A stretch of 64,000 nt of DNA. Origin: Leucobacter chromiiresistens (GTDB lineage: Bacteria > Actinomycetota > Actinomycetes > Actinomycetales > Microbacteriaceae). Below the pieces are notes generated by a model that did no database searches, had not been told where the DNA came from, and saw only the letters and a program-made list of their open reading frames with translations. The position numbers and the translations under genes were made by a program. Location: assembly GCF_001477055.1 (NCBI RefSeq), contig NZ_LDRK01000009.1, forward strand, positions 1 to 64,000, written 5' to 3'. Below, piece by piece: positions 12,663 to 18,468 of this stretch. How positions within the stretch are numbered: position 1 is the stretch's first letter; every line of letters begins with the position of its first letter.

Positions 12663-13982
12663 ATGAATGGATACCGCGACCTCCGCATCGGACTGCTGGG
12701 CTGCGGCTCGGTCGGTGCTCAGGTGGCCCGGCTGATCCTCGCACACGGCGACGAGCTCGCGGCGCGCATCGGAGCGCGACTCACGCTCGCCGGGATCGCC
12801 GTGCGCGACGTCGACGCGCCCCGCGACGTCGAGCTGCCTCGAGAGCTCTTCACCACCGACGCCGAGCGTCTCGTGCAGGGCTCCGACATCGTCATCGAGC
12901 TCATGGGCGGCATCGAGCCCGCGCGCACCCTCATCACGCAGGCGCTGCAGGGCGGAGCCGACGTGGTCACCGCGAACAAGGCGCTCATCGCCGCCCACGG
13001 CCCGGAGCTCTCCGAGGCCGCCGAGCAGGTCGGCGCCCAGCTCTCCTACGAGGCCGCCGTCGCCGCCGCGATCCCGATCCTGCGCCCCCTCCGCGAGAGC
13101 CTGGCGGGCGACCACATCACCCGCGTGCTCGGCATCGTGAACGGGTCGACCAACTACATCCTGGATCGCATGGACCGGTTCGGCGACAGTGCCGAGGACG
13201 CGTCGCGCGTGGCGAGCGAACTCGGGTTCCTCGAAGCCGACCCCACGCTCGACGTCGAGGGGTACGACGCCGCTCAGAAGGCGACCATCCTCGCGAGCAT
13301 CGCCTTCCACACCGAAGTGCCGGTCGACGCGGTGCACCGCGAGGGCATCACGCAGATCACCGCCGAGCAGATCGATGCCGCCAAGAGCGCCGGCTACGTC
13401 ATCAAGCTGCTCGCCATCGCCGAGCGGCTGCAGGCCGCGGACGGCACGCACGGCGTCTCGGCGCGCGTGTACCCGGCCCTCATCCGCCGCGATCACCCCC
13501 TCGCGGCGGTGCACGAGGGCAAGAACGCCGTGTTCGTCGAGGCTGAGGCGGCCGGCGAGCTCATGTTCTACGGCGCGGGGGCCGGCGGCGCCGAAACCGC
13601 GTCGGCGGTGCTGGGCGATCTCGTCTCGGCGGCGCGGCGGCACGTGGTCGGCGGCCCGGGCATCCCGGGATCGCTCCACGCCGAGCTCCCGATCCTGCCC
13701 GTCGGCGAGGTGACGACGGCCTACCAGATCATGCTCGAGGTGCGCGACCAGCCCGGCGTGCTCGCGAGCATCGCCGGCATTCTCGCCGAGCGCGGCGTAT
13801 CGGCGGCCAGCGTCGAGCAGACGGTCGCCGGGGCGGCCGCGGGCGGGGAGCCGAGCGCCGCGCTCGTCATCGGCACGCACCGCGCCCGCGAGGCCGATCT
13901 CGCCGCCACCGTCGAGGCGCTGCGCGCCGCCGACGTCGTCACAGCCGTCACCAGCGTGCTGCGGCTCGAGGGCCAGGCGTGA
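12663..13982 (+). CDS. hom: Homoserine dehydrogenase
   Basis: A 439-aa enzyme reducing aspartate semialdehyde to homoserine. The NAD(P)-binding motif GLLGCGSVGAQVAR begins near residue 10; VTANKALIA, GIVNGSTNYIL and GYDAAQKATILA mark the catalytic domain, with Lys and Asp in the expected places. A C-terminal ACT domain (about residues 350-435, VRDQPGVLASIAGILAERGV) implies feedback control by threonine, as known for Gram-positive Hom proteins. AAGGAGACGAAC precedes ATG 12663. The stop overlaps the GTG of thrB by 4 nt, and thrC, usually in between, is absent. Confidence 0.96.
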   Translation: MNGYRDLRIGLLGCGSVGAQVARLILAHGDELAARIGARLTLAGIAVRDVDAPRDVELPRELFTTDAERLVQGSDIVIELMGGIEPARTLITQALQGGADVVTANKALIAAHGPELSEAAEQVGAQLSYEAAVAAAIPILRPLRESLAGDHITRVLGIVNGSTNYILDRMDRFGDSAEDASRVASELGFLEADPTLDVEGYDAAQKATILASIAFHTEVPVDAVHREGITQITAEQIDAAKSAGYVIKLLAIAERLQAADGTHGVSARVYPALIRRDHPLAAVHEGKNAVFVEAEAAGELMFYGAGAGGAETASAVLGDLVSAARRHVVGGPGIPGSLHAELPILPVGEVTTAYQIMLEVRDQPGVLASIAGILAERGVSAASVEQTVAGAAAGGEPSAALVIGTHRAREADLAATVEALRAADVVTAVTSVLRLEGQA

Positions 13983-14935
13983 GCGCCGCCGCGGGCGGCG
14001 TCGGCCGCACCGTGCAGGTGCGCGTCCCGGCGACCAGCGCGAATCTCGGGCCCGGGTTCGACACGCTCGGCATCGCCCTCGCCTACGGAGACGAGCTCTC
14101 GGTCGTCGTGCGCGACGCGCCCGGGGCGACCGTGCACGTCTCCGGGGTCGGCGCGGGGGAGGTGCCGACCGACGAGACCAATCTCGTCGTGCGCTCCGCC
14201 GCGCACGTGTTCGCGCAGCTGGGGCGGGAGATGCCGGGCATCGAGATCTCGGCGACCAACCGCATCCCGCACGGGCGCGGCATGGGATCCTCCGGCTCCG
14301 CAATCGTCGCCGGAGTAATGATCGCGGCGGGGCTCCTCGAGAGCGACCCGCAGGATCCGGTGGTGCTGACCGAGGAGCAGCTCCTCGCCTTCGCCACCGA
14401 ACTCGAAGGGCACCCCGACAACGTCGCCCCCGCGCTCTTCGGCGGGCTGACGATCGCCTGGACCACCGAGCAGGGGCCCCGCTTCAAACGCCTCATGGTG
14501 CACCGCGGGGTGGCGCCGCTGGTGCTGGTGCCGAGCTTCACCATGTCGACGGAGCTCGCCCGAAGCCTGCAGCCGAAGCAGGTGCCGCACGAGGACGCCG
14601 TGTTCAACGTCTCCCGCTCCGCGCTCCTCATCGCCGCGCTCACGCAGAGCCCCGAGCTGCTGCTCGAAGCGACCGAGGATCGCCTGCACCAGAACTACCG
14701 GGGCGCCGCGATGCCGGCGACGCGCGACCTGATCGGAGCGCTGCGATCCGCCGGCCATGCCGCCGTGGTCTCGGGCGCCGGGCCCTCCGTGCTGGTGCTC
14801 TCGAACGGCCCGCTCGACCGCATGCAGGCGGCGGACTACGTCGCCGAGCACCATCCCGACTGGCGCGTGCTCACCCTGGCCGTCGATACCAAGGGTGCTA
14901 CAGTGGAGACGGCCCCTGCGGGAGCGACGCTCTAG
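13979..14935 (+). CDS. thrB: Homoserine kinase
   Basis: A 318-aa GHMP-family kinase that phosphorylates homoserine for threonine synthesis. RVPATSANLGPGFDTLGIAL is the N-terminal motif 1, IPHGRGMGSSGSAIVAG the phosphate-binding loop (about residue 95), and VSGAGPSVLVL motif 3. GTG 13979 shares four bases with the hom stop codon, so translation is coupled. A TACAGT near its 3' end (14898-14903) could be a promoter for the rho gene downstream. Confidence 0.96.
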   Translation: MSAAAGGVGRTVQVRVPATSANLGPGFDTLGIALAYGDELSVVVRDAPGATVHVSGVGAGEVPTDETNLVVRSAAHVFAQLGREMPGIEISATNRIPHGRGMGSSGSAIVAGVMIAAGLLESDPQDPVVLTEEQLLAFATELEGHPDNVAPALFGGLTIAWTTEQGPRFKRLMVHRGVAPLVLVPSFTMSTELARSLQPKQVPHEDAVFNVSRSALLIAALTQSPELLLEATEDRLHQNYRGAAMPATRDLIGALRSAGHAAVVSGAGPSVLVLSNGPLDRMQAADYVAEHHPDWRVLTLAVDTKGATVETAPAGATL

Positions 14936-15087: not shown

Positions 15088-17295
15088 GTGGAATCCAACG
15101 TCGAAGACAACACCACTCCCGCAGCCGAGGAAGCCGCCGCGCCGCCGCGTCGCCGCGCCTCGCGCCGGGTGAGCGCGGCCGCCGGTGCGGCAGCCCCGGA
15201 GTCGGCACGGGCGGCTGAGGCCCCCGCCGCCGAGGCTCCGGCCGCCGAGGCGTCCGCCGCGCCCGCTGCGGATGCCGCGCAGGCCGCCGCCCAGGCCCCG
15301 GCCGCCGATGAGGCTCCCGCGGCCGCAGCGCCGAAGAAGCGCGCGACCCGCAGCCGCAAGAAGGTCGAAGCCGCTGCCGACGAGGCGTCGGGCGACGCCG
15401 CATCGGCCCCCGCCGATGCGGGCTCGACCGAGTCCGACGAGCAGCCCGTGGCCGCGCCGAAGAAGCGCGCGACGCGCAGCCGCAAGAAGGTCGAGACGCC
15501 CGCCGAGCCGGCGAGCGACGCCGCATCCGAGGCGCCCGTGGCCGCCGAGGCCGCCTCGGCCGCAGCCCCCGCGCAGTCGAGCGACTCGACCGCTGCCGCG
15601 GCGGAGCCCGAGGCGCCCGCGAAGCGCACCCGCAGCCGCCGCGCCACGTCGGCATCGGCGGCGTCGAAGGCTGACGACGCGTCAGCTGCAGCGCCGGAAG
15701 CCGCAGCGACTGATGCCGCGCAGCCCGAAGCACCCGCGGGTGCGGCGAGCGACGCGACGCGCAGCGCCCGGAACTCCGAGCAGTCGGAGCGCGGCGAGCA
15801 GGAGCAGTCGGAGCGCTCGGAGCGCTCGGAGCAGGAGCGCGGCGAGAAGTCGGAGCGCGGCGAGAAGATGGAGCGCGGCGATCGTTCGGATCGCGCCGAG
15901 AAGTCGGAGAACGGCGACGGCGAGCGTTCGGGTCGTGGTCGCCGCGGGCGGGGCCGCAATCAGAAGAACGAGAGCGCCGACGCGAACGAGCAGGCCGAGG
16001 CGACCGAAGACGAGGGCAAGCAGCGCGGCCAGAACGGCAGCGGCGCTCAGAACGCGCAGAAGAACGGCGAGGCGAAGAACGGGGAGAACTCGAGCCGCTC
16101 CAGCCGCACCCGCCAGCGCGACCGCAAGCGCCGGGGCCAGGGCGACGACATCGAGCCCGAGATCACCGAAGACGACGTGCTGCTCCCCATCGCGGGCATC
16201 CTCGACGTGCTCGACAACTACGCCTTCGTCCGTACGAGCGGCTACCTTCCGGGCACGAGCGACGTCTACGTCTCACTCGGGCAGGTCAAGAAGTACGGCC
16301 TGCGACGCGGGGACGCGGTCGTCGGTGCGATCCGGCAGCCCCGCGACAACGACGGAGCCAGCCGCCAGAAGTACAACGCGATCGTCAAGATCGACACCGT
16401 CAACGGCCGGCCCGTCGACGAGCAGGCTGAGGAGCGCGTCGACATCGCCGACCTCACCGCGACCTACCCCGAGGAGCGGCTGCGCTTCGAGACCGACCAG
16501 AAGCACGTGCTCGGCCGCGCCGTCGACCTCGTCGCGCCGACGGGGCTCGGTCAGCGCACCGCACTGGTGGTGCCGGCCCACCTCGACGGCAGCGCCGTGC
16601 TCGGCGAGCTCGCAGAGGCCGTCAGCGCGAACCGCCCCGATGCCCACCTCATGCTGCTGCTCGCGAACGCGCAGCCCGAGGAGATCACACGACTGCAGCG
16701 CTCCGTGCGCGGCGAGGTCGTCGCTGCGAGCTTCGACCGAGCGGCCGAGGATCAGGCGATCATCGCCGAGCTCGCGATCGATCGGGCGAAGCGTCTCGTC
16801 GAGCTCGGCCACGACGTCGTCGTGCTCGTCGACTCGCTGAACCGGTTCGCCCGCGCCTACGCGCAGGCCCAGCACGCGCAGACCCGGCCCGCACTCGACG
16901 AGATCGACGAGCTCGCGCTCGCGCAGATCAAGCGACTGCTCGCGTCGGCGCGCAACGTTGAGAACGGCGGTTCGCTGACCGTCATCGCGACGGTGCAGTC
17001 GAAGACCGGCGTCGCAGCCGACAAGCTGCTGCTGCGCGAGGTGCTCGCCGTCGTCAACAGCGAGGTGCGCTTCGCGAAGACGGCGCCCGGGCTTCCCGCA
17101 GCGGTCGACTTCGAGGCGTCGCGCACCCGCAATCCGGAGTCGATGCTCGGCGCCGACGAAGTCGCGGCCCTGGCGACGCTGCGCGCGGCACTCCACGAGG
17201 ACGACGCCGACGATCGGCTGCGCGAGCGGCTCCGCTCCACGGCCACGAATGCGGCGCTCCTCGCAGAGGTGCAGCGCTCCGGCAGCCTGTCCTAG
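15088..17295 (+). CDS. rho: Rho-like protein with degenerate ATPase active site
   Basis: A 735-aa protein at the canonical rho position. Residues 1-355 are low-complexity (Ala/Pro/Arg repeats with three KKRATRSRKKVE-like blocks, then Glu/Ser/Arg and Asn/Gln-rich stretches), like actinobacterial Rho insertions, but no Rho_N helical domain is visible. Residues about 358-430 are a near-canonical cold-shock RNA-binding domain (GILDVLDNYAFVRTSGYLPG). In the ATPase domain, PPKAGKT is replaced by PAHLDGS (496-502), DER by NAQ (527-529) and the GGVD Q-loop is gone. Walker B Asp (582, LVDSLNR) and a possible Arg finger (RTRN) remain. GTG 15088 follows GAGAGGAAGAAC. True ATP-driven termination seems unlikely; an RNA-binding pseudo-ATPase, or a diverged Rho backed by another copy, are the options. 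Confidence 0.85.
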   Translation: MESNVEDNTTPAAEEAAAPPRRRASRRVSAAAGAAAPESARAAEAPAAEAPAAEASAAPAADAAQAAAQAPAADEAPAAAAPKKRATRSRKKVEAAADEASGDAASAPADAGSTESDEQPVAAPKKRATRSRKKVETPAEPASDAASEAPVAAEAASAAAPAQSSDSTAAAAEPEAPAKRTRSRRATSASAASKADDASAAAPEAAATDAAQPEAPAGAASDATRSARNSEQSERGEQEQSERSERSEQERGEKSERGEKMERGDRSDRAEKSENGDGERSGRGRRGRGRNQKNESADANEQAEATEDEGKQRGQNGSGAQNAQKNGEAKNGENSSRSSRTRQRDRKRRGQGDDIEPEITEDDVLLPIAGILDVLDNYAFVRTSGYLPGTSDVYVSLGQVKKYGLRRGDAVVGAIRQPRDNDGASRQKYNAIVKIDTVNGRPVDEQAEERVDIADLTATYPEERLRFETDQKHVLGRAVDLVAPTGLGQRTALVVPAHLDGSAVLGELAEAVSANRPDAHLMLLLANAQPEEITRLQRSVRGEVVAASFDRAAEDQAIIAELAIDRAKRLVELGHDVVVLVDSLNRFARAYAQAQHAQTRPALDEIDELALAQIKRLLASARNVENGGSLTVIATVQSKTGVAADKLLLREVLAVVNSEVRFAKTAPGLPAAVDFEASRTRNPESMLGADEVAALATLRAALHEDDADDRLRERLRSTATNAALLAEVQRSGSLS

Positions 17296-17394: not shown

Positions 17395-18468
17395 ATGTTC
17401 GAACAGGTCGCAGGGCTGATCGCGGAGCACGCGCGGTTGCAGGAGGAGCTCGCGGATCCCGCGCTGCACGCCGACGCATCACGGGCGAAGAAGGTCAATC
17501 GGCGGTACGCCGAGCTCAGCAAGATCAAGTCTGCGCACGAGCACTGGCAGCAGATGGGCGACGACCTCGAAGCGGCGCGCGAGCTCGCGAAAGAGGATGA
17601 GGCGTTCGCCGAAGAGGTTCCCGTGCTCGAGGCCGGACTCGCCGAGGCCCAGGAGCGTGTGCGCCGACTGCTCATCCCGCGCGACCCCGACGACGCGCGC
17701 GACGTGATCCTCGAGATCAAGGGCGGCGAGGGCGGCGCCGAATCCGCGCTCTTCGGCGCCGACCTGCTGCGCATGTACCTGCACTACGCGGAGTCGAAGG
17801 GCTGGAAGACCGAGATGATCGAGGCCGACGAGAGCGATCTCGGCGGGTACAAGAACGTGCAGGTGGCCATCAAGGCGAACGCCTCCGATCCCTCGCAGGG
17901 CGCCTGGGCGCACCTCAAGTACGAGGGCGGCGTGCACCGCGTGCAGCGCGTGCCCGTCACCGAGTCGCAGGGGCGCATCCACACGTCGACCACCGGGGTG
18001 CTCGTGTACCCCGAGGTCGACGAGCCGGAGGAGGTCGGCATCAATCAGAACGACCTCAAGATCGACGTGTACCGCTCCTCGGGCCCCGGCGGGCAGTCCG
18101 TCAACACCACCGACTCCGCCGTGCGCATCACCCACCTCCCGACGGGCATCGTGGTCGCGATGCAGAACGAGAAGAGCCAGTTGCAGAACCGCGAGGCGGC
18201 CATGCGCGTGCTCCGCGCACGCCTGCTCGCTCGTCAGCAGGAGGAGGCCGCGGCCGAGGCCAGCGCGCATCGATCGAGCCAGATCCGCACGATGGATCGC
18301 TCCGAGCGCATCCGCACCTACAACTTCCCCGAGAACCGGATCGCCGACCATCGCACGGGGTACAAGGCCTACAACCTCGATCAGGTAATGAACGGCTCCC
18401 TCGACGCGGTCATCGAGTCGTGCATCCGCGCCGATGAGGAGGCGCGGCTGGCTGAGCTGGGGCAGTAG
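17395..18468 (+). CDS. prfA: Peptide chain release factor 1
   Basis: A 357-aa class I release factor recognising UAA and UAG. The catalytic GGQ is in [16 protein letters not shown] (about residues 226-240). The codon-recognition PxT-type tripeptide lies in the [13 protein letters not shown] block, and the N-terminal domain is a long coiled-coil-rich helix bundle. Length is normal. AAGGAAG precedes ATG 17395. In related genomes prmC, which methylates the GGQ glutamine, follows directly; here about 5 kb of accessory genes separate them. Confidence 0.97.

Follow-up and report, generated by a model that had tools for sequence, protein, structure and literature searches.

The rho gene of Leucobacter chromiiresistens codes for a protein that looks like Rho without its motor. 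We think, with a probability of roughly two in three, that it belongs to a recurrent, retained, motor-less RNA-binding form of Rho ("pseudo-Rho"), a reading built on the comparison of sequences. PMC8828861 portrays Rho as a ring motor powered by ATP, with strong conservation of the catalytic residues, and cites a survey of about 1300 Rho sequences. In the open-licence literature we found no earlier report of a natural motor-dead Rho. The gene lies in what we call the window, which is the whole stretch of 64,000 nucleotides that was analysed (contig NZ_LDRK01000009.1, positions 1 to 64,000). The features of the window that are needed for the argument, with their strand, are the following:

13979..14935, plus strand: upstream neighbour, presumably thrB, used as a synteny marker (open reading frame and synteny)
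15088..17295, plus strand: putative pseudo-Rho gene, 735 aa, stop codon at 17293-17295, the sole Rho match of the genome
15088..16161, plus strand: N-terminal extension of disordered-type composition (rich in Ala, Glu, Arg and Lys, with few hydrophobic residues), ending in RSSRTRQRDRKRRGQGDDIEPE (16096-16161)
16195..16416, plus strand: Rho_RNA_bind region, the primary RNA site, intact (PF07497, 1.5e-24, 86 bits, cut-off 27)
16573..16593, plus strand: Walker A, PAHLDGS in place of PPKAGKT; Lys184 replaced by Gly (codon at 16588)
16666..16674, plus strand: DER position, reading NAQ; catalytic Glu211 replaced by Ala (codon at 16669), Arg212 of the Arg valve replaced by Gln
16825..16842, plus strand: Walker B, LVDSLN; Asp265 kept
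16897..16908, plus strand: Q-loop position, DEID in place of GGVD
17002..17022, plus strand: R-loop position, KTGVAAD in place of ETGSKMD; Lys326 replaced by Ala (codon at 17014)
17041..17058, plus strand: FKGTGN position, reading VLAVVN (LAVVN for KGTGN, 17044-17058); Lys336 replaced by Leu (codon at 17044)
17113..17139, plus strand: Arg finger position, EASRTRNPE; Arg366 kept (codon at 17128)
17395..18468, plus strand: downstream neighbour, which we take to be prfA (release factor 1), used as a synteny and tree marker (open reading frame and synteny)

The likely start of the gene is the GTG at 15088, which is preceded by AGAGGAAG. The window rho lies in a thrB-rho-prfA locus, and the intact Rho relatives of the Microbacteriaceae sit at the same locus. 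Both markers were found at 181 of 236 rho loci, a collection in which short loci, several loci of one and the same genome, and a small number of ATP synthase-like matches are counted, and prfA was located close 3' of rho and on the same strand at all 219 loci in which it was detected. The protein can be aligned with Rho from residue 358 of 734 almost to the C-terminus, both by the TIGR00767 rho equivalog model and by the M. tuberculosis Rho of PDB entry 7oqh (E 3e-101). The original prediction took the RNA-binding domain to be well preserved, which is borne out by its Rho_RNA_bind score. The Pfam ATP-synt_ab match is weaker (45.5 bits, cut-off 29.5), and the 332.5 bits obtained with TIGR00767 stay under the curated cut-off of 509.45, compared to 619 and 637.6 bits for the intact Rho of Klugiella (L084) and Mycetocola (L083), respectively. 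With the models of type III secretion and flagellar ATPases (SctN/FliI), the best score is 38 bits, far under the cut-off of 604.75.

In E. coli numbering, the substitutions of the window protein are K184G, E211A, R212Q, K326A, and K336L. These residue numbers match the spacings in an intact reference (366-336=30, 336-326=10, 265-211=54, and 211-184=27). They also agree with the M. tuberculosis/E. coli residue pairs quoted in PMC8828861. The alignment to M. tuberculosis Rho (7oqh) is gapless from before Walker A through KGTGN, as had been noted for the ATPase domain, and the translation indeed contains PAHLDGS instead of PPKAGKT and, 31 residues past the first Pro, NAQ instead of DER. Also said to remain were the Asp of Walker B and a candidate Arg finger, and both are present, as Asp265 and Arg366. 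The statement that the GGVD Q-loop and the KGTGN R-loop are gone holds for the loss of both motifs, but not for the name of the second one: KGTGN corresponds to E. coli residues 336-340, and the true R-loop, TGSK (323-326), reads TGVA here, with Lys326 being lost as well. The range initially given, 16528-17100, covers neither the RNA-binding domain nor the Arg finger. At the level of aligned residues, this demonstrates the loss of those that would serve ATP binding, ATP hydrolysis, and RNA translocation, with the RNA-binding domain and the N-terminal extension being kept.

The extension has retained a charged composition of disordered type, and its end, RTRQR[DE]RKRRG, is common to the Leucobacter and G105 examples compared. 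A Rho_N domain was not detected in the window Rho or in three other Leucobacter proteins; it was also undetected in the intact Rho of Klugiella (L084), and both Mycetocola (L083) and Labedella (L082) have it. For M. tuberculosis Rho, the N-terminal region is reported in PMC4167861 to bind RNA on its own. A Rho fold is predicted for the window protein: the AlphaFold model calculated from base 16141 has a mean pLDDT of 80 and a pTM of 0.71, with the RNA-binding part at low confidence, and the best PDB match of Foldseek is M. tuberculosis Rho 7oqh (E 4e-32, query TM 0.68, rmsd 6.4), with E. coli-type Rho next. The likeness to M. tuberculosis Rho comprises the RNA-binding domain, the long N-terminal extension of low hydrophobicity, and this predicted fold, whereas the window protein is without Lys184, Glu211, Arg212, Lys326, the Q-loop, and KGTGN; M. 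tuberculosis Rho has its catalytic residues kept, with Thr for Lys326, according to PMC8828861. The NCBIfam model NF041509, paralog_Rho2 (Rho short form), also aligns over nearly the full length with 321 bits, but the score is under the cut-off of 628 and, unlike that paralog, the window protein is the sole Rho match, has the long form, and adjoins prfA. Pseudoenzymes with dead P-loops are a general class, and pseudo-Rho would resemble them in having a catalytic fold under selection after the loss of the catalytic residues.

The original prediction described the loss in a single gene, and it is in fact genus-wide in Leucobacter. The alignment of orthologues, which had been proposed as a check, indicates that the substitutions are common to the genus, with all 52 Leucobacter Rho degenerate to some degree. 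Neither GGVD nor KGTGN occurs in any of them. Lys184 is lost in 38 (replaced by Gly in 25, Ala in 11, and Ser in 2) and Glu211 in the same 38 (Ala in 37, Thr in 1), and the other losses affect Arg212 in 29 proteins, Asp265 in 3, Lys326 in 49, Lys336 in 52, and Arg366 in 25. DEID is the commonest string at the Q-loop position (15 proteins), and the first Gly is kept in 14 (GSLD, GQLD, GLVD, and others). All five catalytic residues are kept in nine proteins, yet the Q-loop is altered and KGTGN gone in these too. Judging by the residues present, loss of the ATPase is not universal: Lys184 and Glu211, both or one of them, are kept in 14 of the 52 Leucobacter proteins and in 22 of the 37 degenerate rows from elsewhere in the Microbacteriaceae. 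Regarding the other end of the gene, ten of the 52 Leucobacter open reading frames (L023, L024, L025, L028, L029, L032, L033, L035, L036, and L196) are truncated C-terminally, stopping 2 to 20 residues past the Arg-finger column, and in L029 the prfA start is within a few codons of the rho stop.

The whole family was scanned with a DNA pattern for FKGTGNxE over 398 Microbacteriaceae genomes of 85 genera. The pattern was present in 324 genomes. It was absent from every sampled genome in 12 of the genera and also from G242, whose genus-mates carry it. Absence of the pattern may also be due to a gap in the assembly; of the 74 pattern-negative genomes, Rho was read in 47, of which 10 belong to Leucobacter and 37 to other genera, and KGTGN was found in none of the 47, in which all 12 genera and genome G242 are represented (genera g36 and g48 by one genome each). 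Wide erosion of Rho is observed in genera g27, g36, g39, and g88. Genus g37 has K184T/R in three of four sequences, g34 has E211A in three of three, g51 has Arg212 changed in three of three, and g48 combines K184R with R366K, while R366L/M is found in all 11 sequences of g41 and g94 with GGVD, Lys184, and Glu211 kept. The five catalytic residues are kept in L214 (g37), in both g72 rows, and in G242. The Rho of the latter genome (L058, genus g89) has lost the Q-loop and KGTGN, its congeners L212 and L213 being intact, which suggests a recent loss.

In the rest of the order, the pattern was present in 351 of 360 genomes. The nine genomes without it comprise four with degenerate Rho, one with an intact Rho in which Val replaces the Phe ahead of KGTGN, and another four that lack a full-length match. 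In family f14, degenerate Rho with KGTGN lost was read in four of four sequences (L243-L246, from genomes G688, G589, G524, and G668); three genomes of genus g131 have K184A, E211G, and R366A, and one genome of genus g166 has K184R. Over the class, a shorter pattern was found in 369 of 394 genomes, and the 25 without it are the window's genome, 20 from family f39, and four with fragments or weak matches. The 20 degenerate f39 sequences (L251-L270; genera g205, g215, and g254), selected for the absence of the pattern, each give one strong Rho match over 354-375 of 375 residues, and their losses are KGTGN in 20, Lys184 in 14, Glu211 in 7, Arg366 in 3, and Arg212 and Asp265 in none. The f39 genome G1147 has an internal TGA inside the matched Rho stretch. 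As far as these motifs tell, the loss is graded, recurrent, and spans three families, the Microbacteriaceae and two others.

The degenerate state arose repeatedly within the Microbacteriaceae, as demonstrated by sequence trees of PrfA. A quick tree of 131 rows, in which 49 of the 127 inner branches are weak, has at least seven state changes for KGTGN, 12 for the Walker A Lys, and 11 for the Asp210-Glu211 pair; a careful tree of 64 rows again gives seven changes for KGTGN. A single origin of the loss in the family was tried by forcing the 37 KGTGN-less rows to one clade and was rejected (AU p 1.4e-7). The order of the losses can be followed in 152 distinct Rho cores that were picked for their similarity, irrespective of the motifs: KGTGN, Lys184, and Glu211 are all present in 99, 15 are without KGTGN and keep both residues, and 38 are without all three. 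Loss of Lys184 or Glu211 with KGTGN intact was observed in none of these 152 cores. The 131-row table, which includes rows picked for KGTGN absence, agrees on the order, and in G119 KGTGN is kept and the Q-loop changed. Since no core has lost the ATPase residues with KGTGN intact, we infer that RNA translocation was abandoned ahead of ATP hydrolysis, with the translocation parts (Q-loop and KGTGN) changing first and the ATPase centre afterwards.

The comparison of dN/dS over the ATPase domain, suggested together with the original prediction, was done by Nei-Gojobori counting, with pairs that are few and overlapping and with high dS in some of them: the medians for the RNA-binding and ATPase domains are 0.015 and 0.062 in Leucobacter (22 pairs), 0.043 and 0.058 in intact Rho (19 pairs), and 0.036 and 0.105 in other degenerate lineages (13 pairs). 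Purifying selection on the ATPase domain thus persists in Leucobacter (0.062 versus 0.058), and the medians are identical to two digits for the 18 of the 22 pairs that are formed by Lys184-lost proteins. Some relaxation is likely in the other degenerate lineages, because their ATPase-domain value is nearly double the intact one. Shared by the 38 dead Leucobacter proteins are replacements that are fixed relative to intact Rho, such as E211A, H239Q, and E333R, and numerous invariant positions persist in them, many in 213-266 and 305-317. Their entropy is above that of intact Rho in every segment of the ATPase domain, and the RNA-binding domain is less variable, the intact set of this comparison being phylogenetically broader than the dead Leucobacter set.

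Other explanations of the motif losses have been weighed against pseudo-Rho. Sequencing or assembly error, already argued against in the original prediction, can be dismissed: we found no point in its favour, the separate two-contig genome G016 has identical motifs at 98% identity, and named Leucobacter records likewise carry degenerate Rho in a genus-wide pattern. It seems to us extremely improbable that the work of Rho falls to a further, intact Rho encoded elsewhere or to another helicase. A gene could be absent from the assembly of the window's genome, which is 93.7% complete in 194 contigs and gives one Rho match in a protein search. Its PF00006 search gives three matches. Apart from pseudo-Rho, these are two with higher scores, at 29.9-30.6 kb and 32.5-33.1 kb, which sit at the expected position of ATP synthase genes and presumably represent them. 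The search for a second intact rho that had been recommended yielded none in this genome or in the 51 other Leucobacter genomes with a match. Exactly one Rho match was obtained in 52 of 54 Leucobacter genomes, including each of the 14 single-contig genomes and all 45 with a completeness of 90% or more and a contamination of no more than 5%; G002 and G266 (72 and 76% complete) gave no match, also when queried with an intact Rho. An intact second copy would have been detected, since the window query retrieves Rho in 22 of 23 genomes of other families (E 1e-71 to 1e-109), ten of which were read and are all intact. A second Rho copy is practically excluded by these searches. It is also improbable, to a lesser degree, that we are looking at a decaying relic, with Rho dispensable, its C-terminal half drifting to loss, and its N-terminal half kept for a minor reason. 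The gradation from near-intact to heavily eroded states and the ten truncated Leucobacter reading frames would suit a relic, as would the ATPase/RNA-binding dN ratio (median 8 in Leucobacter pairs versus 1.3 in intact Rho), which is inflated by zero RNA-binding dN values floored at 0.001. The ATPase-domain dN/dS of Leucobacter, the same as in intact Rho, speaks against it, and so do the fixed replacements and invariant positions across the 38 dead proteins and the Rho match in 45 of 45 near-complete genomes. The dead domain of Leucobacter does not appear to be simply decaying, because purifying selection persists there (median dN/dS of 0.06). Plain pseudogene decay was rejected on dN/dS, at least in this genus.

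A more serious alternative, possible but still rather unlikely in our opinion, is that pseudo-Rho is a motor-independent termination factor, which terminates or pauses transcription allosterically via RNA polymerase, NusG, and the nascent RNA without ATP-driven translocation. Purifying selection and retention of the canonical locus would agree with such a factor. NusG was compared in 12 Leucobacter and 8 other degenerate lineages with the nearest intact relative, G105, as reference, the window's NusG and G074 (split match) being excluded. The KOW domain is unchanged in all 12 Leucobacter proteins and is not diverged in six of the eight others, including the eroded G073 (L342). It is visibly diverged in G125 and G146 (L328 and L349), both with strongly eroded Rho. 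The unchanged KOW domain may fit a factor that is still active in transcription at least as well as a motor-less scaffold, and the pattern would be compatible with Rho having kept a role at the transcription complex. S10 is bound by the KOW domain as well, for which reason the conservation of this domain says little in favour of termination; besides, the most eroded lineages are without much of the C-terminal domain, with KOW diverged in two of them (G125 and G146) and not in a third (G073). Hairpins followed by T runs were counted with a home-made gene caller in 20 stretches of 20 kb from five pseudo-Rho genomes and 20 from five intact-Rho genomes. With at least four T, they were found at 13 of 88 tandem ends versus 8 of 81, the reversed-strand controls giving 5 and 6, and at 10 of 96 convergent ends versus 14 of 90, for which the controls gave 6 and 14. 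When at least five T were required, the figures were 5 of 88 versus 3 of 81 and 3 of 96 versus 2 of 90, respectively. In these five versus five genomes, with small counts, there is no sign of intrinsic terminators compensating for Rho, and the lack of a visible rise would also suit a termination factor. The nearest debate in the literature concerns a motor-free mode of action of M. tuberculosis Rho: a motor-uncoupled mechanism was once proposed, which is reported and disputed in PMC4499133, a paper that favours the motor. It might even be, although we consider it doubtful, that RNA capture and docking on RNA polymerase are sufficient for the main task of Rho in these actinobacteria, as the repeated loss of the motor could suggest.

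We return to the retained, motor-less RNA-binding Rho as the preferred reading. The initial idea that the rho locus codes for an RNA-binding pseudo-ATPase agrees with the motif losses, the intact Rho_RNA_bind domain, the sole copy, and the purifying selection that these sequences point to. Pseudo-Rho would bind GC- or C-rich nascent RNA through the N-terminal extension and the OB-fold, as suggested by their conservation. It would still fold, and its Rho-like C-terminal domain might let it assemble and dock on the transcription machinery. It would be unable to hydrolyse ATP or to pull RNA; the first inability is predicted because the P-loop Lys and the catalytic Glu are lost, and their roles in ATP hydrolysis are treated as established in PMC8828861. 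Such a protein could be a scaffold, a chaperone, or a roadblock that works by binding RNA, and species with the dead form would be without motor-driven Rho termination.

An annotated rho gene is, then, no proof of Rho-dependent termination. Proteins with the catalytic residues kept and the Q-loop and KGTGN changed, together with fully dead ones, may be regarded as natural separation-of-function proteins. We think that Leucobacter and the independent sister lineages offer a natural experiment on which functions of Rho require translocation, and the repeated loss of motor parts suggests that there may be a useful motor-free job for Rho.
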